The notes beneath the pieces are model-generated. The model was given only the letters and a program-made list of their open reading frames with translations. It was not told the origin of the DNA and searched no databases. 32,119 bases of DNA from Armatimonadota bacterium. Lineage in GTDB: Bacteria; Armatimonadota; JAAZEB01. Position 1 is the first letter of the stretch. The number at the start of each line of letters is the position of its first letter. The translations under genes were made by a program, and so were the position numbers. Shown here in pieces: positions 4,644-29,008 of the stretch. Location: contig JAAZEB010000152.1 in NCBI GenBank assembly GCA_012512505.1, positions 1-32,119 on the forward strand. Direction: 5' to 3'.

Positions 4644-5618
4644 CTAACGCCTCCGGGTCAGCTTCCAGACATCGGGGCGCATGTTGTTGCCGGCGACGAT
4701 CCAGAGGGCATCGGCGTAGACGAAGGGGCTGGCCGCGTGGCGGGGCGCCCAAGGGGTGTGCGGCAGCTCCTGCCAGTTCTCCCCATCGGTGGAGTACCAC
4801 ACATCGTTTCGGTTCTGCTGGTTCCAGCCTTCCAGCACCCACAGCCGGCCGTCCCACACCGCCACGTCGTGATACTGGCGGGGGTGCCAGGGGGCGTGCT
4901 CGCGGTGGCACTGCCACTGCACGCCATCGGCGCTGCTCCAGACATCGTTGAAGAAGGTGCGCTCGGGCCGCTCCGAGGTGTCGTAGGTGCCGCCGCCCAG
5001 CAGCCAGATTCGGTTCTGGAAAACGGCTGAATGCCCGATCATCCCGCGCGGCGCCCAAGGAGCGTGCTCGCACACCCGCTCCCAGTGCGCCCCATCGGCG
5101 CTGCACCACACGTCGTTGTAGTAGCGCAGCGGCGCCGGCGCGAACTGTGGCAGCGTCTGCCCACCCATCACCCAGATTCGGTCAGCAAAAGCAACGGTGT
5201 AGTGCAGCACGCGCGGACCCCAGGGCACGTTGTCACACGCCCGCTCCCAGGTGATGCCGTCGGCGCTGTTCCAGACATCGTTCTGGTAGTGCCCGCCGAT
5301 GCAATCGCCCCCGACGATCCACATCCGGTTGCGGTGGACGACGTAGCCGGCCGTATGGCGACCCTCCCAGGGCGCCTGGCGCACCTCCAGCTTCCACGCC
5401 GCCCCATCGGTGGACGACCAAACCTCGCTGTTGCAGATGCGCGGAAAGTGGCGCTTGTCACCGGGGTTCCAGCCGCCAAGGAGCCACATCCTCCCTTGGA
5501 AGGTGAGGGCGCCGGCGCCATCGCGGGCGGCGAAGTCAGCCTCCTCGGTAACGAGGTGCCACTGGTAGCCCGGGGTAGCCTGCGCGGCAGCGACGGTACC
5601 CGGCATTCCATCGATCAT
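4644..5618 (-). CDS. Six-bladed kelch-type beta-propeller protein
   Basis: A 324-residue protein made almost entirely of six imperfect repeats of about 48 residues. Each has the form NDVW-x-S-x-DG-x-x-W followed by APW-x-PR and a strand ending R-x-W-V-x-GG, which is the kelch/galactose-oxidase blade pattern. The first blade starts with QWHLVTEEADFAARDGAG, and the C-terminal PDVWKLTR probably closes the ring. No signal peptide, catalytic motif or other domain is visible, so it may be a cytoplasmic binding propeller; its ligand is unknown. I chose the ATG at 5618 because GGGAG lies eight bases upstream. An in-frame ATG at 5633 would add five residues but lacks such a site. The gene diverges from the FAH-family gene, with a class A repeat cluster between them. 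Confidence 0.8.
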   Translation of the reverse strand: MIDGMPGTVAAAQATPGYQWHLVTEEADFAARDGAGALTFQGRMWLLGGWNPGDKRHFPRICNSEVWSSTDGAAWKLEVRQAPWEGRHTAGYVVHRNRMWIVGGDCIGGHYQNDVWNSADGITWERACDNVPWGPRVLHYTVAFADRIWVMGGQTLPQFAPAPLRYYNDVWCSADGAHWERVCEHAPWAPRGMIGHSAVFQNRIWLLGGGTYDTSERPERTFFNDVWSSADGVQWQCHREHAPWHPRQYHDVAVWDGRLWVLEGWNQQNRNDVWYSTDGENWQELPHTPWAPRHAASPFVYADALWIVAGNNMRPDVWKLTRRR

Positions 5619-5654: not shown

Positions 5655-5860
5655 GATGGCCCCCCTAGCCCCCCAATCCTGGGGGGAACTGGTGGTTGGC
5701 CCCCCTGGCCCCCCAATCCTGGGGGGAACAAGCCGCCCCCCTGGCCCCCCAATCCTGGGGGGAACTCACCCACCGCCGAATCCAGTTCCCCCCGGTTTCG
5801 GGGGGGCAGGGGGGCCTTCCTTCCGATTCCCCCCGATCTCGGGGGGTCAGGGGGGCCATC
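5655..5860. repeat. Class A GC-rich palindromic repeat cluster, five copies, intergenic
   Basis: This fills most of the 402-base divergent gap between the kelch and FAH genes. Three copies read GCCCCCCTRGCCCCCCAATC followed by CTGGGGGGAAC (starting about 5659, 5699 and 5735). Two read in the opposite orientation, TTCCCCCC followed by GGTTTCGG or GATCTCGG and then AGGGGGGCC (5786 and 5827). Each copy is a C6/G6 hairpin with a short variable loop plus a second C6 or G6 arm. Spacings between equivalent points are 40, 36 and 41 bases, so there is no triplet periodicity. The element has no stop codon in any of the three forward frames here, which creates spurious open frames upstream of the FAH gene. 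The remainder of the gap (5861-6020) shows no gene. Confidence 0.9.
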
Positions 5861-6020
5861 CCCCGCCATCCCGGGCCTTCCCAGGCCGGCGCGGCAGGAC
5901 GTTCTGCCCGCGGCCCCGAAGGGGTTGCACGATGGAGTCCGGGGTTTGGTGTTCCGGAGGCAGGCCGGTGGGGAGGGAGCCTGGGCGGTGGCGCCGCAGG
6001 CGCGGCGAAAGGACGAGCGG

Positions 6021-6809
6021 ATGAAGATTGCGCGCTTTGTGGCTCGGGGGGTCGAGCAGTACGGCATTGTTGATGGGGAGCGGGTGCAAGCTACGCGAGG
6101 GCTGCCCTGGGAAAGCCTGGAGAAGACCGGCACGGAGTACGCCCTGGCGGAGGTGAAGCTGCTTGCGCCGGTGCAGCCCCCAGACGTGATCGCCATCGGG
6201 TTGAACTACAAGCTGCACGCCGACGAGAGCGGCATGCCCTACCCCGCCGCCCCGGTCATCTTCCTCAAAGCCACCAGCGCCGTGGTTGGCCCGGGCGACG
6301 CCATCGTGCTGCCGGAAATGGCGCCCTCGGCGGTAGATTACGAAGCGGAACTGGCGATCGTCATCGGGCGCTCGTGCCGCAAGGTGTCGGCGGAGGCGGC
6401 GCTCGATTACGTCCTCGGCTACACCTGCGGTAACGACGTGAGCGCGCGCGACTGCCAGCTCAAGCTGGACGCGCAGTGGGCGCGCGGCAAGAGCTTCGAT
6501 ACCTTCTGCCCCCTCGGCCCCTGGATCGAGACGGATCTGGATCCCGACCAGGCCCCGATCCGCCTGGAGTTGAACGGCGAGACGATGCAGGAGTCGAACA
6601 CCAGCGACCTGATCTTCTCCTGCCGGACGCTCGTCAGCTACTGCTCGCACATGGCGACCCTACGCCCCGGCACCGTGATCATGACCGGCACGCCTTCGGG
6701 CGTGGGGATGGCCCGCACGCCTCCTCGCTACCTCCAGCCCAGTGACCACGTTTCGGTGACCATCGAAGGGATCGGCACCCTCAGCAACTACGTCCGGGCT
6801 GACGAGTAG
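6021..6809 (+). CDS. Fumarylacetoacetate hydrolase (FAH) family protein
   Basis: A 262-residue protein of the FAH superfamily, which includes fumarylpyruvate hydrolases, acylpyruvases, 2-hydroxyhepta-2,4-diene-1,7-dioate isomerases and ureidoglycolate lyase-like enzymes. The metal site is complete: Glu108 and Glu110 in DYEAELAIVIG and Asp139 in GNDVSARD. His66 in NYKLHADESG is in the usual catalytic position. GTPSGVGM near the C-terminus is another family hallmark. The N-terminal 50 residues form the small FAH domain. The start at 6021 is set by GAAAGGA eight bases upstream and by where homology begins. The frame stays open far upstream through the class A repeats, but that extension is low-complexity Pro/Gly. 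The exact substrate cannot be assigned, and no catabolic cluster surrounds it. Confidence 0.88.
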   Translation: MKIARFVARGVEQYGIVDGERVQATRGLPWESLEKTGTEYALAEVKLLAPVQPPDVIAIGLNYKLHADESGMPYPAAPVIFLKATSAVVGPGDAIVLPEMAPSAVDYEAELAIVIGRSCRKVSAEAALDYVLGYTCGNDVSARDCQLKLDAQWARGKSFDTFCPLGPWIETDLDPDQAPIRLELNGETMQESNTSDLIFSCRTLVSYCSHMATLRPGTVIMTGTPSGVGMARTPPRYLQPSDHVSVTIEGIGTLSNYVRADE

Positions 6810-6923: not shown

Positions 6924-9900
6924 ATGGGCATCAGGAAGCGCGTGTCTGGCCCCGCCACTTCCCCCCGGCTTCAGGGGGCCAGGAGGGCTACCCCCTCCTA
7001 TTCCCCCCGACCTCGGGGGGCCAGGGGGGCCTTCCCCTCCTGTTCCCCCCGGTTTCGGGGGGTTAGGGGGGCTGCCTTACTGGCCCTCTTCCTGCTGCTC
7101 GCTCCGGCAAGCGCGATGGAGATCGTGCGAGAGGGCAAGCCGGTAGCCACGATCGTGGTGCCGGCGAAGCCGCTCGCCGTGGTCTCGGCGGCGGCGCGGG
7201 AGCTGCAGTATCACGTCCGTGAGGCAACCGGGGCGGAGCTGACCCTCGTAACCGAAGACAAGAGGCAGGAGGCGGCAGCCGGCCAGCCGGCGATCTACCT
7301 TGGTGCCTGCCGGGCCACGGCACAGGCCGGTATCGATACGCGCACGCTGCCGCCGAACGGGTTCATCATCCGGTGCGTGGGCAACCGCCTCTTCCTGGCC
7401 GGCGATGACAGCGAGGGCGAGCCGTTCTGGGTTCAGCACGACAACCGCACGCGCGTTGGCACGCTCTTCGCCGTCTACGAACTCCTCGACCGCCACCTTG
7501 GCTGCCGCTGGCTGTGGCCGGGGAAGCTGGGCGAAGTGATCCCCCGGCGCCGGAACATCACCGTGAACGCCTGGAACCAGAAGGGCATTCCCTGGCTGCT
7601 GCACAGCCGCTGGCGTGACGGCAGTCCCTTCGTGGTCGGCACGCAAGGTTGGAGCACGCTCGATGCCCGGGCACGCTACCTGCAGGAGCAGGGGGTCTGG
7701 CTGCGTCGGCAACGCTTCGCCCTCGGCGTGAACATGGACATCCGGCACGCCTTCACCGGCTACTGGGAGCGCTTCGGCACGACGCACCCGGAGTACTTCA
7801 ACCTGCTGCCGGATGGCACCCGCCGGTCGGACCCCTACTACTTCGCTGGCGTGGGCGAACTGATCGCGATGTGCGTCTCCGAGCCGGCGTTCCACCGGCA
7901 GATCGTGGAGGACTGGCAGGCAACGCGCTCGCCGCAGGAGCCCTTCGTGGACGCGAGCGAGAACGATACGCTGGGCAAGTGCATCTGCGAGCGCTGCCTG
8001 GCGTGGGACGTGCCCGGCCCGGGCGTGCCGGCGTCCGCCGCGGAACGGGTCGCCGCCGCCCGCAAGGCGTTCGAGGCGCGCGACCCGGATTGGGCGCGGC
8101 ACCTTGGGTCGCTCTCGGATCGCTACGCGCGCTTCTACCTGGCGGTGCAGCGTGAGGCAGAGAAAGTAGACCCAAACGCGCGCGTGATGGGCTTCGCCTA
8201 CGCCAACTACGTGAAGCCGCCCCTGAAGACGCGCCTGAACGAGCGAATCCTGATCGGCGTCGTGCCGCCGGTGATGTACCCCTGGACCGAGGCGAAGCGC
8301 GCCGCCTTCCGCAAGCAGTGGGAAGGATGGCGCGCGGCCGGCGTCACCCTCATGCTGCGCCCCAACTACACCCTGGACGGGCACTGCTTCCCGATCTACT
8401 TTGCCCACAAGCTGGGCGAAGACTTCCGCTTCGCCGCCCAGCGGGGGCTGATCGCTACCGACTTCGACTCGCTCCGGGGCCAGTGGGCCACGCAGGGACC
8501 AAACCTCTACGTGCTCGGTCGCCTGCACGCCCGGCCAAACCTGACGACGGCGCAGGTGCTGAGCGAGTACTTCCGCGCCTTCGGCAAGGCGGAGCCGGCC
8601 GTGCGCGCCTACTTCGCCCACTGGGAGAAGGTCTCCGATAGCCTCACCGACGAGCGCATCGCCGCCATTGACCGGCAGCGCTCGCCGGAGGGCGGGGGCT
8701 ACGCCTACTTCCACCGCACCGCCCCGGGCATCTTCACCCCCGCCGTGATGGCGCGCGGGCGGGCACTGCTGGCCCGGGCGAAGCGGGCGGCCGCGGGCGA
8801 TCCCATCGCCGCGGCGCGTGTCGCGTTCCTGGAGAAGGGGCTGCGCAACGCGGAGCTGACCCTCGCCGCGCAGGCCGCCTTCGAGCACTACAAGAAGACC
8901 GGCGCCATCGCGGGCTACCGGAAGGCAATCCAGGCGCTGGATGCTTACCGCAAGCGCGTTGAGGGCGACAACGTGGCGAACATGGCGGCCCTCGCCTGGA
9001 TGGAATCGCTCACCTGGGAGCGGTCACTCCTCTCCCTGCTGTCGGATCCTGGCACGCCGCTGGAGGGCCCCTGGCGCTTCGCCTGGGATCCGAACCAACG
9101 CGGCGAGGGCGCCGGCTGGGCGGCCGACGACTTCGATGACGCAGGCTGGCAAACGATCGGCATCGACGGGCCGTGGGAGAAGCAGCCGGTCGGCCAGCAG
9201 TGGCGCAAAGAACATGGGAGCGACTACGACGGGATCGCCTGGTACCGCACCCGCTTCTCGGTGAAGCCGGCGGCCAGGCCGCAGCAGGTGCGCCTGGTCT
9301 TCGGCGCGGTGGACGAGGCGTGCACCCTCTGGGTGAACGGGCAGAAGCTGTTGGAGCGCCCCTTCCCCTACCAGGGGAACAACAACTCCTGGCAGGAGGC
9401 GTTCGAGGTGGATGTCACCGCCGCCGTGCGCACCGACCGGCCAACCACCCTTGCCGTGCGCGTGGAGGACAACTCCGGCGCGGGCGGGATCTGGCGGCCG
9501 GTGTGGGTGGTGCAGTCCGACGCGCCGGCCGCGGCGGAGGCAAACCTGATTCTGAACGGCGGCTTCGAGGCCGACGAGCCGGCCTGGGACCAGAGCATCA
9601 TGTGCGGGAAGTTCACCCTGACGCTGGACGACCAGGTGGCGCGCAGCGGCCGGCGCTCGGCGCGCATTGAATGCACCGAGATCGCTCCGCCGGAGGCGCA
9701 GCAGGAAATGCGCACGCGCGCCTGGGGCCGCTGGTATCGCACCGGGATCCGGGTGCAGCCGGAGAAGACCTACCGCCTGCGCGTGTGGGTGAAGACCTCG
9801 GCGGACTTCCGGGGCACCCTCGCCGTGTGGCTGCTTGCCGGCGGCAGCAAGGGCACGCTGGAGCTGAAAACGCTCAACACGGAGGGGATCTGGCGCCCGC

Positions 9901-10010
9901 TGTCGCTGGGGCAGATCGCCCCGGAGGCCGAGGAGGTCAGCCTCTACCTGAACCTAATGCACGGCACCGGCACCGCCTGGTTCGATGACGTAGAGCTGGT
10001 GGAGGAGTGA
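6924..10010 (+). CDS. Large secreted DUF4838 protein with GH2-like jelly-roll and C-terminal CBM
   Basis: A 1028-residue multidomain protein. GGGAGG at 6909-6914 supports the ATG. Residues 1-9 are followed by a 14-residue repeat array from class A DNA, then a hydrophobic stretch ending LLLAPASA (about 50-64) that looks like a signal peptide core and cleavage site. Residues 66-210 resemble the N-terminal domain of alpha-glucuronidases and related glycosidases (AARELQYHVREATGAEL; GTLFAVYELLDRHLGCRW). Residues 220-600 match DUF4838 proteins (ASENDTLGKCICERC; RVMGFAYANYVKPP). Residues 707-865 form a GH2-type sugar-binding jelly roll (LEGPWRFAWDP; WYRTRFSV; LWVNGQKL). Residues 873-1028 form a CBM4/9-like module (NLILNGGFEADEPAW; AWFDDVELVEE). 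Polysaccharide binding or hydrolysis outside the cell is likely, but the catalytic activity is not established. Confidence 0.82.
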   Translation: MGIRKRVSGPATSPRLQGARRATPSYSPRPRGARGAFPSCSPRFRGVRGAALLALFLLLAPASAMEIVREGKPVATIVVPAKPLAVVSAAARELQYHVREATGAELTLVTEDKRQEAAAGQPAIYLGACRATAQAGIDTRTLPPNGFIIRCVGNRLFLAGDDSEGEPFWVQHDNRTRVGTLFAVYELLDRHLGCRWLWPGKLGEVIPRRRNITVNAWNQKGIPWLLHSRWRDGSPFVVGTQGWSTLDARARYLQEQGVWLRRQRFALGVNMDIRHAFTGYWERFGTTHPEYFNLLPDGTRRSDPYYFAGVGELIAMCVSEPAFHRQIVEDWQATRSPQEPFVDASENDTLGKCICERCLAWDVPGPGVPASAAERVAAARKAFEARDPDWARHLGSLSDRYARFYLAVQREAEKVDPNARVMGFAYANYVKPPLKTRLNERILIGVVPPVMYPWTEAKRAAFRKQWEGWRAAGVTLMLRPNYTLDGHCFPIYFAHKLGEDFRFAAQRGLIATDFDSLRGQWATQGPNLYVLGRLHARPNLTTAQVLSEYFRAFGKAEPAVRAYFAHWEKVSDSLTDERIAAIDRQRSPEGGGYAYFHRTAPGIFTPAVMARGRALLARAKRAAAGDPIAAARVAFLEKGLRNAELTLAAQAAFEHYKKTGAIAGYRKAIQALDAYRKRVEGDNVANMAALAWMESLTWERSLLSLLSDPGTPLEGPWRFAWDPNQRGEGAGWAADDFDDAGWQTIGIDGPWEKQPVGQQWRKEHGSDYDGIAWYRTRFSVKPAARPQQVRLVFGAVDEACTLWVNGQKLLERPFPYQGNNNSWQEAFEVDVTAAVRTDRPTTLAVRVEDNSGAGGIWRPVWVVQSDAPAAAEANLILNGGFEADEPAWDQSIMCGKFTLTLDDQVARSGRRSARIECTEIAPPEAQQEMRTRAWGRWYRTGIRVQPEKTYRLRVWVKTSADFRGTLAVWLLAGGSKGTLELKTLNTEGIWRPLSLGQIAPEAEEVSLYLNLMHGTGTAWFDDVELVEE
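6958..7073 (+). repeat. Class A repeats in frame within the DUF4838 gene, 42-bp period
   Basis: Three copies start at 6959, 7001 and 7043, exactly 42 bases apart. Each reads TTCCCCCC, a six-base loop, G5-G6, then a two- to three-base link and AGGGGGGC or a variant. The translation is a 14-residue tandem repeat of the form SPR-x-x-G-x-R-x-A with a Pro-Ser pair. The array lies between the start codon and the hydrophobic core of the signal peptide. The orientation is that of the 5786 and 5827 copies of the intergenic cluster. Confidence 0.9.
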
Positions 10011-10880: not shown

Positions 10881-11939
10881 ATGCTCACTCATCGGGAGAA
10901 CACTCTCCGGAACGCCCGCTTCCAGGGGCCGGAGTGGATCCCAATGACGGTCGCTTGCTCAAACGCCTCCTGGGATCAGTGGCGTGAGGAGCTGGAGGCG
11001 GTGGCGCTGCGCCACCCCGACTTCTTCCCTTACGTGCACGAGGGCTGGCGCGACTACGACCACTTCGACTTCGGGCCGGCGCACACAAAGGGCGTGCCCT
11101 TCACCGATGCCTGGGGCTGCACCTGGGAAACCGCCGTCAACGGGCTGGAGGGTGTGGTCACCAACACCCCCCTGGCCGACTGGGAGGCGTTCGAGACCTA
11201 CCCGTTTCCCGACCCGAACCGCACCGGTGACCGCGGCCCGGTAGACTGGGAGGCCACCGCGAAGGCGATCCGGGCCGCGCGCGAGGCGGGTCACCTCACC
11301 GCCGGCAGCACGGCGCACGGCTTCCTCTTCCTGCGCCTGCAGTACCTGCGTGGCTTCGAGAACCTGATGCTGGACATGGCCACTGGCGACCCGCGCCTGC
11401 AGCAGCTCATCGATAAGATCGTCGCTCACACCCAGGTGATTGTCAGGAACTACCTGCGCATCGGGGTAGACGTCATGGAGTTCGCCGATGATCTGGGCAC
11501 GCAGACGGCGACGATCATCGGCCCGGAGAACTTCCGGCGCTGGATCAAGCCGGCCTACACGAAGCTGATGGCCCCCTGCAAGGCCACCGGCACCCTCGTC
11601 GGCTTCCACAGCGACGGCTACACCCTCGATATCCTGGAAGACCAGGTCGCCGCCGGCGTAGACATCGTCAACCCGCAAGACCTGGCCAACGGCATCGACA
11701 ACCTGGCGCGCACCATCAAGGGGAAGGCCTGCATTCGCCTGGACATCGACCGGCAGACGATCATTCCGTTCGGCACCCGTAAGGAGATCCACGACCTGAT
11801 CGAGGAAGAGGTGCGCAAGCTGGGCGACCCAAGCGGCGGCCTGGAGCTGATCTGCGGCATCTACCCGCCCACCCCGCCGGAAAACGTGGACGCCCTCTGC
11901 GAGGCGTTGCGCAAGTTCCGCACCTATTGGTGGGACTGA
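10881..11939 (+). CDS. Uroporphyrinogen decarboxylase (URO-D) family protein
   Basis: A 352-residue TIM-barrel protein of the URO-D superfamily (PF01208). Recognisable segments are LTHRENTLRNARFQGPEWIP at the N-terminus, VMEFADDLGTQ, GFHSDGYTLDILED, GVDIVNPQDL and GLELICGIYPPTPPENVDAL. True HemE hallmarks such as the N-terminal Arg-rich FRQAGRY motif are absent. The H-x-C zinc motif of MtaA/CmuA methyltransferases is replaced by HSDG. It therefore probably belongs to the large group of URO-D-like proteins of unknown substrate, possibly acting on corrinoids, tetrapyrroles or demethylated substrates. AAAGGGA about ten bases upstream supports this start; the frame is open further upstream but overlaps the HEPN gene. 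It is followed by a second URO-D gene 80 bases on. Confidence 0.85.
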   Translation: MLTHRENTLRNARFQGPEWIPMTVACSNASWDQWREELEAVALRHPDFFPYVHEGWRDYDHFDFGPAHTKGVPFTDAWGCTWETAVNGLEGVVTNTPLADWEAFETYPFPDPNRTGDRGPVDWEATAKAIRAAREAGHLTAGSTAHGFLFLRLQYLRGFENLMLDMATGDPRLQQLIDKIVAHTQVIVRNYLRIGVDVMEFADDLGTQTATIIGPENFRRWIKPAYTKLMAPCKATGTLVGFHSDGYTLDILEDQVAAGVDIVNPQDLANGIDNLARTIKGKACIRLDIDRQTIIPFGTRKEIHDLIEEEVRKLGDPSGGLELICGIYPPTPPENVDALCEALRKFRTYWWD

Positions 11940-12019
11940 GGCAGAGTAGGTCGTCCTCATTCGTCACGGTGAGCGGGTGAATGCACTACCGTAGCGCGCG
12001 GGCACTCCAGGGAGGTAAG

Positions 12020-13219
12020 ATGACATCTAGAGAGCGGGTGGAGGCGGCCCTGCAGCACCGGGAGCCGGATCGGACGCCGGTGTTCGAGTACGTGCTTCTG
12101 GCGCCGGTGGCCGAGCAGCTTATCGGCCGGCCGTTCGTGGACTGCAATGGCGGACGGCACGGTTGGGACACGCTGATCGCCGAAAAAGGCTGGGAAGGCG
12201 CCGTCCGCCAGTACGCCCGGGATCAGGTGGAGATCGCCGCCTTGCTGGGGCACGACCTGCTCTACGTGGTGCCCAACCCGGCCCCACCGCGGATAGCCCC
12301 CCCTGCCCCCCCCGAAACCGGGGGGGAACGCGATGGGATGGCTTCCTCTGGCTCCCCTGACGCCGGGGGGGAACGCGATGGGGCGGCTTCTCCTCTCCCC
12401 CCCAAAGTTGGGGGGGAGAGGGGGGGCTCCTCCCCGAGGCCGCCAGACGACCCGGTGGAGCGCGTGCGGCAGCGAACTGAGGCGGGGCTGCAAGCACCCC
12501 TCCACGTGCCAGAGGAGACGCTCCTGGTCTACGTGCTCCTCAAGGAGGAGATGCGCCAGCGCGACCTGGACCTGCCGATCCTGGCGCCAGCCTACGGCCA
12601 CGGCATCTGGACCGACACCGACCTGATGCAGGCGATGCTCCTAGAGCCGGAGGTGGCGCACGCTCACTTCCGGCTGGCGACCCAGCGCTGCCTGGCCGCC
12701 ATCGAAGCCTACCTGAAGGTGGGGGTGGACCAACTCGGCGTGGGAGGCGACTTCGCGGGCAACCGCCCGATGATCTCGCCGCAGGCCTACCGCGAGTTCA
12801 TCATGCCGGAGGTGCGCGTGCTCTCGCGGCGGATCCACCAGGCCGGGAAGTGGGCGATCAACGCCAGCGACGGCAACCTCTGGTCAGTGATCGACGACTT
12901 CCTCCTCGGCTGCGAGGTAGACGGCTACCTGGAGATCGACAGTCACGCCGGCATGGACCTGCGCCGCCTCAAGGAAGCCTACGGCGACCGGATCACCCTC
13001 TACGGCAACATGGACTGCGGCACGATCCTCACCTTTGCCACGCCGGAGGAGATCCGCCGGGCAACCCACGAGTGCCTCGATGCCGGCTGGGGCAGCGGCG
13101 GGCACCTCTTCAGCGCCAGCAACGCCATCACCGCCAGCGTGCCCCTGCCCAACTACCTGGCGATGGTGAACGCCTACCGCGAGTACTTCGGTCTGGCGCC
13201 CCTGCGGCTGGCGGGTTGA
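12020..13219 (+). CDS. URO-D family protein with an in-frame repeat insertion
   Basis: A 399-residue URO-D-superfamily protein, about 50 residues longer than its neighbour. Family segments flank the insertion: TSRERVEAALQHREPDRTPV at the start and, after it, VGVDQLGVGGDFAG, ASDGNLWSVIDDFLLG, MDLRRLKEAYGDRITLYGN and MDCGTILTFATPEEI. Residues about 88-141 are a Pro/Gly/Glu/Arg-rich stretch encoded by three class A repeats; URO-D homology appears to resume near DDPVERVRQRTEAGL. GGAGGT at 12011-12016 supports the ATG at 12020 over an in-frame ATG at 11981. The substrate is unknown. The insertion probably forms a surface loop, since it lies between secondary-structure elements near the N-terminal third; that placement is an inference. 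Confidence 0.83.
   Translation: MTSRERVEAALQHREPDRTPVFEYVLLAPVAEQLIGRPFVDCNGGRHGWDTLIAEKGWEGAVRQYARDQVEIAALLGHDLLYVVPNPAPPRIAPPAPPETGGERDGMASSGSPDAGGERDGAASPLPPKVGGERGGSSPRPPDDPVERVRQRTEAGLQAPLHVPEETLLVYVLLKEEMRQRDLDLPILAPAYGHGIWTDTDLMQAMLLEPEVAHAHFRLATQRCLAAIEAYLKVGVDQLGVGGDFAGNRPMISPQAYREFIMPEVRVLSRRIHQAGKWAINASDGNLWSVIDDFLLGCEVDGYLEIDSHAGMDLRRLKEAYGDRITLYGNMDCGTILTFATPEEIRRATHECLDAGWGSGGHLFSASNAITASVPLPNYLAMVNAYREYFGLAPLRLAG
12291..12428 (+). repeat. Class A repeats in frame within a URO-D gene, 45-bp period
   Basis: Three copies with equivalent points at 12327, 12372 and 12417, exactly 45 bases apart. Each has C6-C8, a short variable loop and G6-G7. The first two are followed by the same GAACGCGATGGG segment. 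The translated unit is 15 residues with a GGERDG or GGERGG core. The orientation matches the 5659-5765 copies of the intergenic cluster and is opposite to the array in the DUF4838 gene. Confidence 0.9.
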
Positions 13220-20032: not shown

Positions 20033-20176
20033 CAGGAAAGATGGCCGGAGTACCCGAGCCATCGGGCTTCAGGGTTTGGGATGCCGCATTGCTGCGGCGC
20101 TCCGTCGCTCTCCCAGGCAACTGGCCGGAGTGCCCGAGCCATCGGGCCTCTTCGGGCTGGCCGCATTGCCACGGCC
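20033..20176 (+). repeat. Class B repeat cluster 1
   Basis: Two partial units downstream of the WbsX-LamG gene. Each has CTGGCCGGAGT or a variant, the hairpin CCCGAGCCATCGGG (20053-20066 and 20133-20146), and a GCCGCATTGCTGCGGC hairpin (20083-20098) that is degenerate in the second unit. The order is the same as in cluster 3 (28780-28985) and inverted relative to cluster 2 (25240-25364). With 19925-20032 (nothing recognised) it makes up the first part of the 613-base gap before the pilin gene. Confidence 0.85.
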
Positions 20177-20262
20177 CCCCGCTGTTCTACCCTGGAAATG
20201 GTCTCTTGTCACCCACCTAACGCTTGGATTGGCGATGGAGCCCCTTTTTCATTCTCCTGGGT

Positions 20263-21721: not shown

Positions 21722-22345
21722 ATGAAGCTCGGAAGTGTTGCGAGGGAAAAGACCCGCTCGGGGTTCCTGGCGGAAGTGCGCCGGCGCAGCGGCACGAACC
21801 CGGCCGATTGCTACCAGTGCGGCAAATGTACCGCCGGCTGCCCCCTCACCTTTGCCGGCGACCTGGACCCGGCGCGGGTGATGCGGCTGGTGCAGCTTGG
21901 GCAGCGCGATGCCGTGCTGCAGAGCCGCACCATCTGGCTGTGCGCCTCCTGCGAGACGTGTACCACGCGCTGCCCTCAAGAGGTGGATCTGGCGAGCGTG
22001 ATGGACGCCCTGCGCATCATGGCGCGCGAGGCCGGCCTCACCCAGGCGGCGCGCGAGGTTGCCATCGCCAATGCCGGGCTGCTCGGCAGCGTTAAGAGCC
22101 GCGGCCGCGTTCACGAGATGATGCTGGTGCTGCAGCAAAACCTGCGGACGCTGCACCTCTTCCGCGATGCCGAGAAGGGTCCCGTCCTGATGCTGAAGGG
22201 CAAGATGGATCCCCTGGGCCACAAGCGCGGCGCCCGCGACCAGGTGCGCCGCCTCTTCGAGAACGTGGCCCGGATGGAGGCGGCGGAGCGCGCCGCGTCG
22301 ACCACCCCGCGGTGCGCGTGCAGCGATGAAGGAGGGGAAGCGTGA
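21722..22345 (+). CDS. hdrC: Heterodisulfide-reductase subunit C-like iron-sulfur protein
   Basis: A 207-residue HdrC-like protein carrying two [4Fe-4S] motifs. These are Cys30-Cys33-Cys36-Cys40 (DCYQCGKCTAGCPL) and Cys74-Cys77-Cys80-Cys84 (WLCASCETCTTRCPQ). HdrC passes electrons from HdrA to the catalytic HdrB. AAAGG a few bases upstream fixes the ATG at 21722; an in-frame ATG at 21671 lies within the leader hairpin and lacks homology. The stop overlaps the GTG start of hdrB by four bases (GTGA), so the two are translationally coupled. The C-terminal tail after residue 180 is charged and ends in a Cys-rich RCACSDEGG. The position as first gene of a seven-gene locus identifies it as part of an Hdr/Flx complex. 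Confidence 0.92.
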   Translation: MKLGSVAREKTRSGFLAEVRRRSGTNPADCYQCGKCTAGCPLTFAGDLDPARVMRLVQLGQRDAVLQSRTIWLCASCETCTTRCPQEVDLASVMDALRIMAREAGLTQAAREVAIANAGLLGSVKSRGRVHEMMLVLQQNLRTLHLFRDAEKGPVLMLKGKMDPLGHKRGARDQVRRLFENVARMEAAERAASTTPRCACSDEGGEA

Positions 22346-23208
22346 GCTACGCCTACTTTCCAGGATGCTCGCAGCAAGGGATGGCGGCGGAGTTCGACCG
22401 CTCTGCCCGGAGCGTGTGCGACCGCCTGGGCATCGCGCTGAGCGAGATCCCGGACTGGGTGTGCTGCGGCGCCACGCCGGCGCACGCCACCAGCCACCTC
22501 CTCTCCATCGCCTTGCCCGCGCTGACGCTGGCGAAGGTGAAGGATGCCGACGCCGTGGCGACCGTCTGCGCCGCCTGCTACAGCCGCCTGCGCATCGCCA
22601 GCCATGAGCTGCGCGAGGACGCGGAGCTGCGCGCCCGGGTGAAGGAGGCGGCCGGCGTGGAGTGTGCCGGTGAGGTGCCGGTGCGCCACCTGCTCGATAT
22701 TCTGTGCAACGACCTGGGCGTGGCGGCGATCCGCGAGCGGGTGAAGCGCCCGCTGGCCGGTCTGAAAGTGGCCTGCTACTACGGCTGCCTGCTGATGCGC
22801 CCGCCGAAGGTGGTGGCGTTCGACGATCCCGAGAACCCGCGGGTGATGGACGAGGTCCTCGCCGCGGCGGGTGCCGAGTGCGTGGAGTGGCCCTACAAGA
22901 CGGAGTGCTGCGGGGCCAGCCTCAGCCTGGCGCGGCCAGACGTGGTGTGCAAGCTGGCCAACGACATCCTGCGCGAGGCGCGCGATGCCGGGGCGCACGT
23001 GATCGCCGTGGCCTGCCCGCTCTGCCACACCAACCTGGACCTGCGCCAGGCGGACGTTGCCCGGCAGTATGGGGTGCGCTACGAGATGCCGGTGCTTTTC
23101 TTCACTCAACTCCTCGGGCTGGCGCTGGGCGTGCCGGAAAAGGGCCTCGGCCTGAACCGGCTGATCGTGAGTCCCAAGCCGGTGCTGGAGAAGCTGGCGG
23201 CCGCGTGA
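22342..23208 (+). CDS. hdrB: Heterodisulfide-reductase subunit B-like protein with two CCG domains
   Basis: A 288-residue HdrB-like protein, the expected disulfide-reducing subunit. Both CCG domains are complete. The first is Cys9, Cys41-Cys42, Cys76, Cys79 (YFPGCS; WVCCGATP; VCAACY). The second is Cys149, Cys189-Cys190, Cys225, Cys228 (YYGCLLMRPP; ECCGASLS; ACPLCHTNLD). In the methanogen enzyme such motifs bind two noncubane [4Fe-4S] clusters that cleave a heterodisulfide. In bacteria lacking coenzymes M and B the substrate is another disulfide or unknown thiol, with DsrC proposed in sulfate reducers. GGAGG six bases before GTG supports the start. The full cysteine set argues for an active enzyme rather than a degenerate homologue. 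Confidence 0.93.
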   Translation: MSYAYFPGCSQQGMAAEFDRSARSVCDRLGIALSEIPDWVCCGATPAHATSHLLSIALPALTLAKVKDADAVATVCAACYSRLRIASHELREDAELRARVKEAAGVECAGEVPVRHLLDILCNDLGVAAIRERVKRPLAGLKVACYYGCLLMRPPKVVAFDDPENPRVMDEVLAAAGAECVEWPYKTECCGASLSLARPDVVCKLANDILREARDAGAHVIAVACPLCHTNLDLRQADVARQYGVRYEMPVLFFTQLLGLALGVPEKGLGLNRLIVSPKPVLEKLAAA

Positions 23209-23222
23209 GAGGGTGCTGATCG

Positions 23223-25214
23223 ATGGCTCGTGTTGGGGTCTTCATCTGCCATTGCGGGGAGAACATCGCGCGCACGGTGGATTGCGCGCGGGTGGCCGAG
23301 TATGCCGCCACCCTCCCCGGCGTGGCGCACGCGGTGGACTACCGCTACATGTGCTCCGATCCGGGGCAGCGCCTGATCGAGACGGCGATCCGCGAGCACG
23401 GACTCACCGGCGTCGTCGTGGCGTCGTGCAGCCCCCACATGCACGAGGTGACCTTCCGCCGCACCGTGGCGCGTGCTGGCCTCAACCCGTTCCTCTGCGA
23501 GATGGCCAACATTCGCGAGCAGTGCTCCTGGGTGCATGAGGATCGCGAAGCCGCCACCGCGAAGGCCTGCGAGCTGGTGCGCCTGATGGTGGAGAAGGTG
23601 AAGTGGAACACGGCACTCGAGCCGATCCACGTGCCGGTCACCCGCAAGGCGCTGGTAATCGGCGGGGGCATCGCCGGCATCCAGGCCGCGCTGGATATCG
23701 CCAACGGCGGCCGCGAGGTGATCCTAGTCGAGAAAGGCCCCTCCATCGGCGGGCACATGGCGCAGCTCTCGGAGACCTTCCCCACCCTCGACTGCTCGCA
23801 GTGCATCATGACGCCGCGCATGGTGGAGGTGAAAAACCACCCGAACATCACCCTCTACACCTACGCCGAGGTGGAGAAGGTAGACGGCTACATCGGCAAC
23901 TTCGCGGTGACCATCCGCAAGAAGGCGCGCTGTGTCGACGAGGCGCTGTGCACCGGCTGCGGCGAGTGCCAGAGCAAGTGCCCCCAGGGCAAGCTGAAAA
24001 CGTCGGTGATCCCCAACGAGTTCGACCTGGGCCTCAGCCGGCGGCCGGCCATCTACGTGCCGTTCCCCCAGGCGGTGCCGAACGTGCCGGTCATCGACAA
24101 GGAGCACTGCCGCTACTTCCAGGATGGCAAGTGCGGCGTCTGCCAGAAGGTGTGCCCGGCCAAGGCGGTCGATTTCACGCAGACAGACCAGGTCGTCACC
24201 GAGCAGGTGGGCGCGATTGTGGTCGCCACCGGCTACGACGTGATGTCGTCGGGCGAGTATGGCGAGTATGGCGGCGGGCGCTACCCGGACGTGATCGACG
24301 GCCTGCAGTTCGAGCGGCTGCTGAGTGCCTCCGGGCCGACCGGCGGCGAGGTGAAGCGGCCGTCGGACGGCAAGGTGCCGGAAACGGTGGTCTTCATTGC
24401 CTGTGCCGGCTCGCGGGATCGCTCGCACGGGGTGCCTTACTGCTCGAAGATCTGCTGCATGTATACGGCTAAGCACGCGATGCTCTACAAGCACAAGGTG
24501 CATCACGGGCAGGCCTACGTCTTCTACATGGACATTCGCGCCGGCGGCAAGAATTACGACGAGTTTGTGCGCCGCGCCATCGAGGAGGAGGGCGCCGTCT
24601 ACCTGCGCGGCCGCGTCTCGCGCCTCTATCAGAAGGACGGGCAGCTCATCGTCAAGGGCGCCGACACCCTCAGCGGCCAACCGGTGGAGATCGCGGCCGA
24701 CCTGGTGGTGCTGGCGACGGCGATCCAGGCGCGGCCGGGGTCGGACGCGCTGGCGCAGATGCTGAAGGTCCCTTACGACGGCTACGGCTTCCTGAGCGAG
24801 GCGCACCCGAAGCTGCGGCCGGTGGAGACGAACAGCGCCGGCGTCTACCTGGCGGGCGCTTGCCAGGCGCCGAAGGATATCCCCGAGACGGTGGCGCAGG
24901 CGAGCGCCGCGGCCAGCAAGGTGCTCGGCCTCTTCTCCATGGAGCAGATGGAGCGCGAGCCGACCGTCTCGGTGGTAAACGAGCGCACCTGCATCGGCTG
25001 CTTCGACTGCGAGCGCGTCTGCCCCTTCGGCGCCATCGAGCATCGGGAGATCCGCGACCGCCGGGGCAACCTGCTGAAGGTCGTCTCTCACGTGAACGAG
25101 GGGGTCTGCGCCGGGTGTGGCGCCTGCGCCACCACCTGCCGCAGCGGCAGCATCGAACTGCGCGGCTACACCGACGAGCAGGTTTTCGCCCAGATCGCCG
25201 CCGTGGGGGTATAG
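23223..25214 (+). CDS. hdrA: Heterodisulfide-reductase subunit A-like flavoprotein
   Basis: A 663-residue HdrA of usual length, the flavoprotein at which electron bifurcation is thought to occur. The N-terminal domain has FICHCGENIA plus Cys44, Cys69, Cys92 and Cys101. The FAD site is VIGGGIAGIQAALDIANGG (147-163), followed by EKGPSIGGHMAQL and the Cys191/Cys194 pair in DCSQCIMTPRM. An inserted ferredoxin region holds Cys243-246-249-253 and Cys296-304-307-311. A C-terminal ferredoxin domain holds Cys590-593-596-600 and Cys629-632-635-639. All are typical of HdrA. It starts 14 bases after hdrB. A class B repeat cluster and a HEAT-repeat remnant separate it from the Flx-like genes, but orientation and content indicate one operon. 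In FlxABCD-HdrABC, NADH electrons are thought to be split between ferredoxin and the HdrB substrate. Confidence 0.94.
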   Translation: MARVGVFICHCGENIARTVDCARVAEYAATLPGVAHAVDYRYMCSDPGQRLIETAIREHGLTGVVVASCSPHMHEVTFRRTVARAGLNPFLCEMANIREQCSWVHEDREAATAKACELVRLMVEKVKWNTALEPIHVPVTRKALVIGGGIAGIQAALDIANGGREVILVEKGPSIGGHMAQLSETFPTLDCSQCIMTPRMVEVKNHPNITLYTYAEVEKVDGYIGNFAVTIRKKARCVDEALCTGCGECQSKCPQGKLKTSVIPNEFDLGLSRRPAIYVPFPQAVPNVPVIDKEHCRYFQDGKCGVCQKVCPAKAVDFTQTDQVVTEQVGAIVVATGYDVMSSGEYGEYGGGRYPDVIDGLQFERLLSASGPTGGEVKRPSDGKVPETVVFIACAGSRDRSHGVPYCSKICCMYTAKHAMLYKHKVHHGQAYVFYMDIRAGGKNYDEFVRRAIEEEGAVYLRGRVSRLYQKDGQLIVKGADTLSGQPVEIAADLVVLATAIQARPGSDALAQMLKVPYDGYGFLSEAHPKLRPVETNSAGVYLAGACQAPKDIPETVAQASAAASKVLGLFSMEQMEREPTVSVVNERTCIGCFDCERVCPFGAIEHREIRDRRGNLLKVVSHVNEGVCAGCGACATTCRSGSIELRGYTDEQVFAQIAAVGV

Positions 25215-25239
25215 CGGGCGACCAGCGCCCGCGGCGAAG

Positions 25240-25364
25240 AGGCCCGATGGCTCGGGCACTCCGGCCAGTTGCCTGGGAGAGTAACGGAGTGCCGCAGCAA
25301 TGCGGCTTCCCACAGTGCGAAGCCTGATGGCTCGGGCGCTCCGGCCAGTTGCCTGGGAGAGCAC
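25240..25364 (-). repeat. Class B repeat cluster 2, inside the hdr/flx operon
   Basis: Two units in reverse orientation relative to clusters 1 and 3. Each contains CCCGATGGCTCGGG or a close variant, followed by ACTCCGGCCAGTTGCC or GCTCCGGCCAGTTGCC. Between the units is a GCCGCAGCAATGCGGC hairpin (25291-25306). The cluster lies between the hdrA stop and the HEAT-repeat remnant and ends abruptly at the remnant's first recognisable codon. Confidence 0.88.
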
Positions 25365-25508
25365 CGGACCCTCGTCAGGGCACTGGAGTACTCCGGCACA
25401 CCGGAAGCGATCCCGGTGCCGGCACCGCTCCTGAAGCACGCAGAGCCGGCGGTTCGCTACAATGCGCGAGTGGCCGTAAAAGCGCTTGGCAAGCAGATAG
25501 ACACATGA
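25365..25508 (+). pseudogene. C-terminal remnant of a HEAT-repeat protein
   Basis: About 47 codons read RTLVRALEYSGTPEAI, then PVPAPLLKHAEPAVRYNARV and AVKALGKQIDT. This follows the HEAT/PBS-lyase repeat pattern (aLeyLgdpeAip.L...L.h.epaVR..Aa.ALg). The frame stays open upstream but there it only translates class B repeat DNA, and no start codon with a ribosome-binding site is present at the junction. The stop TGA overlaps the next gene's start as ATGA (25505-25508), an arrangement typical of two translated, coupled genes. The simplest reading is that a HEAT-repeat gene once stood here and lost its 5' part where the repeats now lie. A short functional protein started from a non-ATG codon cannot be excluded. 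Confidence 0.55.
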
Positions 25509-26848
25509 TGAGCGATACCTTTGAGCCGAAGATTGTGGCGTTTGTGTGCAACTGGTGTACCTACACCGGGGCCGACCTGGCGGGCACCAGCCGGATGCAG
25601 TACCCGGCCAACGTGCGCATCATCAAGCTGCCCTGCACCGGGCGGATCAGCCCGCTCTTCATCATGAAGGCGCTGGAGCAGGGTGCTGACGGTGTGCTCG
25701 TCTCCGGCTGCCATCCGGGCGACTGCCACTACACCGCCGGCAACTACCACGCGCGCCGCAAGTACACCATCTTCCGCGAGATGCTTCACTTCCTGGGCGT
25801 TGAGCCGGAGCGCCTCTTCTTCTCCTGGGTCTCCGCCGCCGAGGGGCGCAAGTGGGCCGATCTGGTCGCCGAGGTCACCGACACGGTGCGCCGCCTGGGC
25901 CCCCGCCGCAGCGCCTGGGGTGAGCCGGTAGAGGGCATTGCCGCACCACGTCTGTCGGCCAACCCGGTCCCCTTCGAAGCGCCGGCCGGCACGTTCGCGG
26001 CCCAGGCCGAGGCGATGCGGGAGAAGGCCAAAGCACTCCTGGCCGGCGGCGAAGTGGGCACGGTGATCGGCTACGAGCAGGGCACGCTGCCGGGCACGGC
26101 GCGGCCGGCGTTCGTCTCCACGCCCGAGGAGGTCGACCGGCTGGTCTGGAACGAGCACTGCCACCAGAACCTGGCGGTCTACGCGGCCCGCAAGCCGGCC
26201 AAGCCGGGCAAGGTGGCCCTGGTGGTGAAGCCGTGCGACGAGCGGAGTCTCGTCGGGCTGCTTCAGGAGAACCGCCTCGCTCGTGAGGACGTGGTGCTGA
26301 TCGGGATGGCCTGCCACGGGGTACAGAGCGAGGGTGCCCTCGCGCCCCGGTGCGCCGCCTGCCAGACGCGCACGCCAGCGCTCGCCGACCCGGTGATTGG
26401 GGAGGCGACGCCGCCCACCGCCACGGCCGACCCAAGGCTGGAGCAGATTGCGCGCATCGAGCAGATGGCGCCGGCGGAGCGCTGGAACTTCTGGCAGGGG
26501 CACTTCTCGCGCTGCCTGAAGTGCTACGCCTGCCGCGCAGCCTGCTCGCTTTGCACCTGCGAGCGCTGCCTGGCGGAGAAGGCGCAGCCGCGCTGGATCC
26601 CGGCGCCGCCGGACGGGGCGGGCAACCTCTCGTGGCACGCGGTGCGCGCCTGGCACCTCGCCGGCCGCTGTGTCGACTGCGGCGCCTGCTCGGCGGCGTG
26701 CCCGGCCGACATCCCGCTCTACCTGCTCAACCTGAAGCTGGCGCAGGTGGTGAAGGACGCCTTTGACTACGAAGCCGGGCGCGACCCGGCGGCGGCGCCC
26801 CCCCTCACCACCTACCGCGAGGACGATGCACAGGAGTTCATCCGCTGA
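25505..26848 (+). CDS. FlxD-FlxC-like fusion: MvhD-type delta subunit plus 4Fe-4S protein
   Basis: A 447-residue fusion. Residues 8-140 are an MvhD/FlxD domain with Cys15-Cys18, Cys44, Cys69 and Cys74 (FVCNWCTYTGADLAG; LPCTGRISP; SGCHPGDCHYTAGN), which holds a [2Fe-2S] cluster and docks on HdrA. Residues 175-320 (KPCDERSLVGLLQE, GMACHGV) resemble FrhB-like/FlxC proteins. Residues 337-355 contain a dense CLKCYACRAACSLCTCERC motif, and 389-399 (CVDCGACSAAC) a second ferredoxin-type cluster. FlxC and FlxD are described as separate proteins in Desulfovibrio-type loci; here they form one chain. No clear ribosome-binding site precedes the ATG, consistent with coupling to the overlapping HEAT-like frame. 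The protein should link the NAD(P)H-oxidising module to HdrA. Confidence 0.85.
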   Translation: MMSDTFEPKIVAFVCNWCTYTGADLAGTSRMQYPANVRIIKLPCTGRISPLFIMKALEQGADGVLVSGCHPGDCHYTAGNYHARRKYTIFREMLHFLGVEPERLFFSWVSAAEGRKWADLVAEVTDTVRRLGPRRSAWGEPVEGIAAPRLSANPVPFEAPAGTFAAQAEAMREKAKALLAGGEVGTVIGYEQGTLPGTARPAFVSTPEEVDRLVWNEHCHQNLAVYAARKPAKPGKVALVVKPCDERSLVGLLQENRLAREDVVLIGMACHGVQSEGALAPRCAACQTRTPALADPVIGEATPPTATADPRLEQIARIEQMAPAERWNFWQGHFSRCLKCYACRAACSLCTCERCLAEKAQPRWIPAPPDGAGNLSWHAVRAWHLAGRCVDCGACSAACPADIPLYLLNLKLAQVVKDAFDYEAGRDPAAAPPLTTYREDDAQEFIR

Positions 26849-27888
26849 TGGCCAAGGCACTGCGAACCGAAGCGCTTCTCGATTTCCTACGGGCGGTCCA
26901 GCAAGACGCCCGACGCCTCGTTGCTCCGGTGGAGGAGGATGGGCTGCGCCTCTTCCGCGCGGTAGACCGCGTCGAGGAGATCACCCTGGCCGAGGGGAAC
27001 ACCCGCTGGTCGTTCAAGGAGGTCCTTTTCCCGCGGTCGGAGGCGCTCTTCCACTACCGGCTCTCAGGCGGGTCGGTGGCGCTTCAGGAGCCGGACCAGC
27101 CGGAGGGCGAGACGGTCGTCTTCGGCGCCCGCCCGTGTGATGCCGCCGGCCTCGCCGTGCTAGACGCCGTCTTCGCCCCTAACGGACGCCCGGATCCCGA
27201 CCAGGCGCCGGAGCACGAGGACCCGTTCTACCGCCGCCGCCGCGCCCAGACCACGATCATCGGCCTCGCCTGCCTTGAACCAGGGCCGGCCTGCTTCTGC
27301 ACCGCCGTCGGCCTCTCTCCCACCGGCACCGCCGGCAGTGATCTGCTGCTGACGCCGCTGCCGGACCAGGGGGTGTTCCTGGCCGAGGCGGTCACCGAGA
27401 AGGGCGAGCGCCTCCTCGCGGCCCACGCGCACCTCTTTACGGATACAGACGACACGAAGGAGCAGGCAACACGGGCCGCCGAAGGGCGCATCCAGCGGAC
27501 GGCCCTCTCGGGAGTGGGGGGGCCACTCGCCACCCTTTTCGAGGCGCCGCCGTGGGAGGAGCTGGCGGCGAGGTGCCTTGGCTGCGGGGCGTGCGCCTTC
27601 GTCTGTCCCACCTGCCACTGCTTCGACATCGTGGACGAGGGGAACGCCGCCGGGGGCAGCCGCTGCAAGTTCTGGGATTCGTGCGGGTTTGCGCTGTTCA
27701 CGGCGCATACCTCGGGGCACAACCCCCGCGCCACCCAGCCGGCGCGCTTCCGCCAGCGGGTGCTCCACAAGTTCCGCTATCTGCCGGAGCGCTTCGGCGT
27801 GCAGGGGTGTGTCGGCTGCGGGCGCTGCATCGCCACCTGCCCGGTGAACATGGACATCCAAGAGGTGGTGGCGAAGGTGACCGGGTGA
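26848..27888 (+). CDS. FlxB/HyhB/AsrA-like 4Fe-4S electron-transfer protein
   Basis: A 346-residue iron-sulfur protein of the family that includes sulfhydrogenase beta subunits, AsrA of anaerobic sulfite reductase and FlxB. The start overlaps the previous stop as TGATG. Residues 90-150 carry GARPCDAAGLAVLDAVF and GLACLEPGPACFC, both usual in the family. Clusters are bound by Cys243-246-249-253, with Cys256 and Cys258 (CLGCGACAFVCPTCHC), and by Cys321-324-327-331 (CVGCGRCIATCPVNMDI). KFWDSCGFALFTAHTSGHNP lies between them as in AsrA/HyhB. The role is electron transfer between the FlxA-like flavoprotein and the FlxDC fusion. The next gene starts 45 bases after the stop. Confidence 0.88.
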   Translation: MAKALRTEALLDFLRAVQQDARRLVAPVEEDGLRLFRAVDRVEEITLAEGNTRWSFKEVLFPRSEALFHYRLSGGSVALQEPDQPEGETVVFGARPCDAAGLAVLDAVFAPNGRPDPDQAPEHEDPFYRRRRAQTTIIGLACLEPGPACFCTAVGLSPTGTAGSDLLLTPLPDQGVFLAEAVTEKGERLLAAHAHLFTDTDDTKEQATRAAEGRIQRTALSGVGGPLATLFEAPPWEELAARCLGCGACAFVCPTCHCFDIVDEGNAAGGSRCKFWDSCGFALFTAHTSGHNPRATQPARFRQRVLHKFRYLPERFGVQGCVGCGRCIATCPVNMDIQEVVAKVTG

Positions 27889-27933
27889 CAGGCCCCGGGG
27901 TCTGCTCTCCCGCTACTCTGACCTGAGAGTGCT

Positions 27934-28773
27934 ATGGCAAACGTATATCTGCCTTACTTGATGACCGTGGCCGCGGTGCGTGACGAGACGCCGGACGTGC
28001 GGACGCTGCGCCTGGAGTTCCAGGACGAGAGCATCCGCGAGGGGTTCCGCTTCCGGGCGGGGCAGTTTGGGCTCTACTCGGTGTTTGGCCAGGGAGAGTG
28101 CGTCTTCTGCATCGCCAGCCCAGACACGCGCCCCGGGGCCATCGAGTGCAGCTTCAGCTACCGCTGGGGCGGCAAGGTCACCAGCGCCCTCTCGCGGCTC
28201 ACCGTGGGCGACACGATGGGTTTCCGCGGGCCCTATGGCAACTGGTTCCCGCTGGACGCGATGCGGGGCAAGAACCTGGTCTTCATCGGTGGCGGCATCG
28301 GCATGGCCCCCATCCGCTCCATCTTCGAGACGGCGCTAGACCAGCGGGCGGAGTTCGGCGACATCCTCCTGCTCAACGGCGCCCGCAGCGTCTCCGACCT
28401 GGTCTACAAGGCCGAAACCGAGGCTTGGATCGCCCGCGACGACATCACCTGCGTGAAGACGGTGGACCCGGGCGGCGAGACGCCGGAGTGGGATGGCAAG
28501 GTGGGGCTCATCCCCAAAGTGCTGGAAGAGTTGGCCCCCAGCGCCACCAACGCGCTGGCGCTGGTGTGCGGCCCGCCGATCATGATCAAGTTCGCCCTGG
28601 AGTCGCTGGCGAAGCTTGGGTTCGGCAAAGAGCAGATCTACACCACCCTGGAGAACCGGATGAAGTGCGGCAGCGGGCAGTGCGGGCGCGGCAACATCGG
28701 CGGCTGCTACGTCTGCAAAGACGGCCCTGTCTTCAGCGCCGCCGAGCTAGAGCAGCTCCCGCCGGAGTTTTAG
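27934..28773 (+). CDS. FlxA-like FAD/NAD(P)H oxidoreductase subunit
   Basis: A 279-residue ferredoxin-reductase-fold protein of the sulfhydrogenase-gamma/AsrB/FlxA group, the predicted NAD(P)H entry point. FAD binding is shown by FRFRAGQFGLYSVFGQGE (38-55). The nucleotide-binding glycines are in FIGGGIGMAPIRSIFETAL (117-135), and VCGPPIMIKF is the usual C-terminal strand. The C-terminal cluster region should read C-x4-C-x2-C-x-n-C. It shows Cys245, Cys250, then Gly253 where Cys is expected, a non-canonical Cys258, and Cys261 (MKCGSGQCGRGNIGGCYVCK). It is the last gene of the operon. A weak purine-rich site (GAGAG) precedes the ATG. Class B cluster 3 follows six bases after the stop. Confidence 0.9.
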   Translation: MANVYLPYLMTVAAVRDETPDVRTLRLEFQDESIREGFRFRAGQFGLYSVFGQGECVFCIASPDTRPGAIECSFSYRWGGKVTSALSRLTVGDTMGFRGPYGNWFPLDAMRGKNLVFIGGGIGMAPIRSIFETALDQRAEFGDILLLNGARSVSDLVYKAETEAWIARDDITCVKTVDPGGETPEWDGKVGLIPKVLEELAPSATNALALVCGPPIMIKFALESLAKLGFGKEQIYTTLENRMKCGSGQCGRGNIGGCYVCKDGPVFSAAELEQLPPEF

Positions 28774-28779
28774 AGCCCC

Positions 28780-28985
28780 CCGGCAACTGGTCGGAGTACC
28801 CGAGCCATCGGGCTTCACACTGGAAGAAGCCGCATTGCTGCGGCACTCCGCGGCTCTCTCAGGCAACTGGCCGGAGTGCCCGAGCCGTCGGGCATCGGCA
28901 GTCTCCGCGGCTCTCTCAGGCAACTGGTCGGAGTATCCGAGCCATCGGGCTTCACACTGGAAAAAGCCGCATTGCTGCGGCGCCC
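28780..28985 (+). repeat. Class B repeat cluster 3, the most complete copy
   Basis: Roughly three units of about 60-80 bases. GGCAACTGGTCGGAGT or a variant starts at 28782, 28862 and 28919. It is followed by CCCGAGCCATCGGG or a variant, then in the first and third unit by TTCACACTGG and GCCGCATTGCTGCGGC (28829-28844 and 28967-28982). Units are joined by CTCCGCGGCTCTCTCAGG. The middle unit is shortened and lacks the GCCGCA hairpin. The cluster fills most of the 299-base gap between the FlxA-like gene and the converging DUF1080 gene. Confidence 0.9.
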
Positions 28986-29008
28986 CATGGAAGGCGGGGT
29001 GCCTCCAC

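Follow-up and report, generated by a model that had tools for sequence, protein, structure and literature searches.

The 45-bp-period array within an MtaA/CmuA-like gene of the URO-D superfamily most probably arose when an untagged REP-like palindromic repeat, specific to this lineage, was inserted in frame and amplified locally. The window analysed here is a 32,119-nt stretch of a contig from the draft genome of an Armatimonadota bacterium (5.66 Mb, 396 contigs, 97% complete), referred to below as the host genome. The initial annotation had placed the array in frame at 12291-12428 of a URO-D-family gene and had taken its units for a mobile or amplifying palindrome that is tolerated in coding DNA. 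The placement, the amplification and the tolerance were borne out. The first bases of the three units are 12291, 12336 and 12381 (spacing 45 + 45), and one stop-free frame runs through them, read as APPAPPETGGERDGMA, SSGSPDAGGERDGAA and SPLPPKVGGERGG, respectively; copies occur genome-wide and are found in frame in the genes of HypF, CarB, the MtaA/URO-D-like protein and others. The features of the window are collected in Table 1.

Table 1. Repeat units, arrays and the genes that carry or adjoin them in the window
Feature	Coordinates	Strand	Basis and remarks
Extragenic five-unit array (+++--)	5657..5858	.	Between divergent genes 4644-5618 (-) and FAA hydrolase 5988-6809 (+)
DUF4838 / glycoside-hydrolase-like gene with second array	6942..10010	+	PF16126, PF02837; gene call
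Second in-gene array	6959..7072	-	Three units, spacing 42 + 42; residues 6-44, before signal-peptide-like stretch ALLALFLLLAPASA
URO-D-family paralogue, no insert	10881..11939	+	PF01208 E 7.2e-19; sequence read
MtaA/CmuA-like, URO-D-superfamily gene with insert	12020..13219	+	PF01208 E 7.8e-23; gene call; Foldseek
Unit 1	12291..12335	+	45 bp, intact C7...G7 palindrome, CCCCCCCTG outer tract
Unit 2	12336..12380	+	Degenerate; GGGGGGGAACGCGATG common to units 1 and 2; 80% identity to unit 1
Unit 3	12381..12428	+	Diverged, near-perfect palindrome CTCTCCCCCCCAAAGTTGGGGGGGAGAG; scores on both strands

An untagged, lineage-specific repeat family

The repeat belongs to a REP-like family that is lineage-specific and untagged. 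Its unit has the consensus GGCCCCCCTGR-CCCCCC-(G....C or A....T)-GGGGGG-AAC and forms a 32-33 nt hairpin with an outer C6 tract. The strict core CCCCCCN6GGGGGGRA matched the host genome 148 times, evenly across the strands, compared with 4 matches for the reversed pattern, and the family is therefore not a product of chance. A covariance model recovered at least 189 copies in the host genome and none in two genomes of the same family, and a unit-specific pattern run on 291 genomes of the phylum gave 101 matches in the host and no more than 3 in each of the others. Strict-pattern matches in three of these genomes (G062, G074 and G040) were considered as members of the family and rejected, being rather other palindromes or few copies. 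G062, another Armatimonadota genome, has a distinct palindrome family of its own, CCCCCCGC..GCGGGGGGAA, with 29 matches, many of them at contig ends (for example, L046 and L054). In G040 (L148, L154), a few copies of CCCCCCTAACCCCCCATTAATGGGGGG are followed by a GGGGGG tract, an architecture that resembles that of the host family.

The pair that closes the loop covaries: among 261 copies, 155 have G-C at this place and 100 have A-T, and in an alignment of 57 sequences double-sided changes fell in 23 cells, compared with 9.9 expected from shuffles. A strand-specific RNA argument drawn from loop pair 2/5, which reads A.C on one of the strands and G.U on its complement, was discarded, as the computed hairpin energies of the two strands are alike (-14.21 vs -14.18 kcal/mol). 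Searching the window against Rfam gave no match. The units carry neither a GTAG nor a CGTC tag; the stem is preceded by CCCCCCTGR and followed by AA[C]. The missing tag places the host family outside the two described REP superfamilies despite its REP/RPE-like behaviour.

Genomic placement and architecture of the arrays

Gene context was scored, with calls from a home-made caller, over 1.33 Mb picked mostly around known copies. The 297 units in this sample form 100 arrays: 79 are intergenic, 18 lie in called genes and the other 3 extend across a gene end. Given the sampling, the in-gene fraction should not be read as the rate for the genome as a whole. Intergenic arrays mostly begin 2-30 nt past a stop codon, and 57 of the 58 within 30 nt are in sense orientation, the remaining one being antisense. 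Convergent gaps hold 15 arrays per 68 gaps, compared with 4 per 130 for divergent gaps (p = 4e-5); the five-unit array of the window is among the few in the latter class. The extragenic copies most likely function or persist as hairpins at the 3' ends of transcripts. Within the minus-strand ORF adjoining the five-unit array, the stretch 4770-5427 holds five direct repeats at intervals of 141-168 nt, with a Kelch-like, W/G-rich translation.

Spacer identity is 0.61 between adjacent units and 0.32 across arrays, and this sharing of spacer sequence by neighbours indicates local tandem duplication. Arrays frequently terminate contigs of the draft, and such assembly breaks suggest that the true copy numbers exceed the assembled ones. 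Degenerate copies inside genes are probably under-counted as well.

Arrays of mixed orientation are all polarised: the order +...- was found in 53 and -...+ in none, with one further array of the form -...-. The outer ends of these mixed arrays are thus inverted repeats, GGCCCCCCTGG and CCAGGGGGGCC, which might suggest a true MITE, a non-autonomous element bounded by terminal inverted repeats and moved by a resident transposase. We regard such an origin as doubtful, because numerous arrays consist of single or same-orientation units and a search covering the Y1/RAYT family found no cognate transposase (PF01797 had 0 matches in the 97% complete host genome, whereas 5 of 14 controls were positive). 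No target duplication was readable; the nearest same-family genome, 75% identical in the HypF protein, offers no DNA-level empty site near enough for dating an insertion.

For an inserted and locally amplified REP-like repeat, the course of events would be as follows. Units would arrive through a copying process, which may be template switching at hairpins or transposition acting in trans, and would then multiply by local tandem duplication. A copy inside a gene would persist only where it adds a net length divisible by three, keeps the frame open and puts its Pro/Gly-rich loop into a linker that tolerates it. A bolder proposal, which we consider rather unlikely, is that a RAYT-independent process spreads the untagged C6/G6 hairpins and repeatedly places them at the domain junctions of core enzymes, as a recurrent source of interdomain linkers.

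The array in the MtaA/URO-D-like gene

The best NCBIfam matches of the array-bearing gene, which possibly has an alternative start upstream at 11981, were to the MtaA family (methylcobamide methyltransferases), yet below the cut-off. The top Foldseek match of the modelled protein was 4ay7, a methyltransferase of M. mazei, and URO-D structures were also retrieved. Coding signal flanks the array on either side. The folding of the array region surpassed that of 200 out of 200 dinucleotide shuffles (z = -4.3). Unit 2 gave a weak profile match of 7.1 bits.

The mapping of the insert on a predicted structure, as suggested by the initial annotation, placed it in a low-pLDDT loop that follows a strand near residue 81 and precedes a helix beginning at residue 145. 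In this AlphaFold2 model, built from an alignment of only 7 sequences and with a mean pLDDT of 72, the pLDDT is below 50 over residues 93-140 and about 27 in the middle of that stretch. The loop is accordingly predicted to be disordered, and the Pro/Gly-rich segment most likely has no catalytic role of its own. The predicted translation of the insert contains the candidate tryptic peptide DGMASSGSPDAGGER.

Alignment of the protein with 11 orthologues (twelve sequences in all) showed a linker of 57 residues in the window protein and of 17-25 residues in the orthologues, at the same position between 'YVVPNP' and 'DDPVER'. The nearest orthologues, with 53-66% identity, come from other Armatimonadota, Sumerlaeota, Omnitrophota, Ruminiclostridium and Spirochaetes. 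Their linkers are hypervariable, unrelated in sequence and frequently Pro-rich, and comparison of the sequences suggests that the repeat lengthened a linker that was already hypervariable beforehand. The net gain is hence about 32-40 residues rather than the roughly 50 first attributed to the repeats, although these are indeed in frame and stop-free. Unrelated Pro-rich loops of equal length at this site in orthologues had been named as evidence against the initial reading; the loops found there are frequently Pro-rich but far shorter. The adjacent URO-D gene, to which the array-bearing gene had originally been compared, indeed has no such insert. Being a diverged paralogue, however, it is the wrong comparator.

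Arrays in other genes

In-gene arrays are few and stop-free, and they lie in linkers, at domain junctions or at termini. In HypF, the array-derived stretch separates the zinc fingers from the YrdC domain and is missing from 3vth and from the relatives, with a net gain of 25 residues over 3vth; the HypF of a genome of the same family has a shorter linker of unrelated sequence. The insert in CarB occupies the junction preceding the second synthetase half and adds 46 residues relative to E. coli CarB (1bxr was used for comparison), and the linker at this junction in the same-family genome is likewise shorter and unrelated. An unassembled array seems to interrupt one CusA/CzcA pump gene: contig C333 (L163) ends and contig C275 (L178) begins within an array, the two parts covering positions 2-145 and 146-1020 of PF00873, so that the gene would be continuous over the gap. 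Further arrays were found in the tail of an N6/N4 methyltransferase and in DUF58, GH123-like and heparinase-like proteins.

Two more arrays are at the C-termini of glycosyltransferases and two in N-terminal extensions before signal-peptide-like stretches. One of the latter is the array at 6959-7072, on which the initial annotation had made no remark and which could instead be 5' untranslated, as the start codon is uncertain. Terminal cases are weaker, given that the genuine start or stop codon may be at another position; several arrays also touch contig ends.

The frequency of arrays at contig ends and the error-prone nature of C6/G6 tracts would fit an assembly artefact or simple GC-rich slippage in place of an inserted repeat. 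This is very unlikely, since in the URO-D-like, HypF and CarB genes the sequences on the two sides of the array encode, in a single frame, successive portions of the same protein, and slippage yields neither a covarying loop pair nor a fixed orientation. It is also improbable that the URO-D-like loop is a selected, functional Pro/Gly-rich linker grown by tandem duplication, its likeness to the genome repeat being secondary. The variable, frequently Pro-rich linker at the same site in every orthologue does indicate that the site favours such sequence, and units 1 and 2 appear to be locally duplicated. However, the DNA palindrome and its outer C-tract match the genome-wide family, and the same type of repeat-derived peptide occurs in unrelated host proteins and not in the HypF or CarB of relatives, which argues against a protein-specific origin.

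Unit period and reading frame

The proposal that selection holds the period at a multiple of three, with a corresponding bias inside genes genome-wide, was upheld only in part. All seven same-orientation spacings in genes (42, 42, 42, 42 and 48, plus 45 and 45 in the URO-D-like gene) are multiples of three, but so are 43 of the 84 intergenic ones, among which 42 is the commonest. The in-gene excess is present but weak, with a Fisher p of 0.012 when the URO-D pair is included and 0.041 when it is left out, on spacings that are few and non-independent. Opposite-facing pairs in genes have spacings that include 34, 44 and 76, and the units are stop-poor, 88-99% being open per frame. By eye, nearly all copies in genes seemed to be read in the register that yields PP...GG, an impression on which no claim is based. 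It is the net length of the insert, not the period of the unit, that must be a multiple of three, and any open frame shows as much. The period is therefore only partly due to selection; most simply, the tandem period of 42 bp is one that the repeat prefers and that happens to fit coding DNA, with selection acting on total length and site.

Relation to known palindromic repeats

Coding palindromes are best known in reduced intracellular genomes and some Proteobacteria. Palindromes in frame have been described in Rickettsia, Wolbachia and several REP-bearing genomes (PMC3733652, PMC2996958). The Rickettsia palindromic elements (RPE) and those of Wolbachia are short palindromes that have entered non-structured segments of housekeeping genes in frame (PMC2996958, PMC3733652), and some RPE families bear a terminal CGTC tag (PMC3733652). 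Similarly, the host repeat is found in frame in conserved genes (HypF, CarB and MtaA/URO-D-like) and is absent from their orthologues. In contrast to RPE, the host family has a different consensus, lacks the CGTC tag and belongs to Armatimonadota, not Rickettsiales, and most of its copies, unlike RPE and Wolbachia elements, lie outside genes in 3'-end arrays built from a 32-nt unit.

REP elements of the GTAG and CGTC superfamilies are 20-40 nt hairpins that form inverted dimers and clusters near 3' ends, in unidirectional or convergent gaps; a minority lie inside genes, including clusters that encode 43-82 residues (PMC3733652). The host palindrome resembles them in its size of 32-33 nt, in its high copy number in one genome (148 by the strict pattern, at least 189 by the covariance model) and in its mainly extragenic placement (79/100) near 3' ends, in convergent (15) more than in divergent (4) gaps. 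It differs from these superfamilies in carrying no GTAG/CGTC tag, in the absence of any RAYT/Y1 match, in its occurrence in one Armatimonadota genome and in an outer C6 tract that could compete with the stem. The PARCEL coding palindromes of Mollicutes are tandem palindromic DNA read in frame as 25-residue amphipathic modules (PMC2996958). The host repeat is likewise tandem palindromic DNA read in frame, but its repeats are of 13-15 residues, Pro/Gly-rich and predicted to be disordered.

A literature search on palindromic repeats of Armatimonadota returned no title on the topic. Judged by the sources searched, the repeat family is new, while the phenomenon itself is not. The host of this family is a 5.7-Mb Armatimonadota genome with inserts in the well-studied CarB, HypF and CusA/CzcA, where they can be located on solved structures or family profiles. 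This makes it a good system for studying the RAYT-free spread of a repeat and what sets the tolerance of proteins to 25-46 extra residues.

The window also contains a second, unrelated intergenic palindrome family (20036-20183, 25235-25368 and 28778-28986), with CCCGAGCCATCGGG and GCCGCATTGCTGCGGC hairpins accompanied by GGCAACTGGYCGGAGT, which also forms direct and inverted copies, 50-119 nt. The same-strand gene run at 21775-28773 includes ferredoxin-like Cys motifs and, by eye, resembles a heterodisulfide reductase (HdrABC/MvhD-like) cluster.
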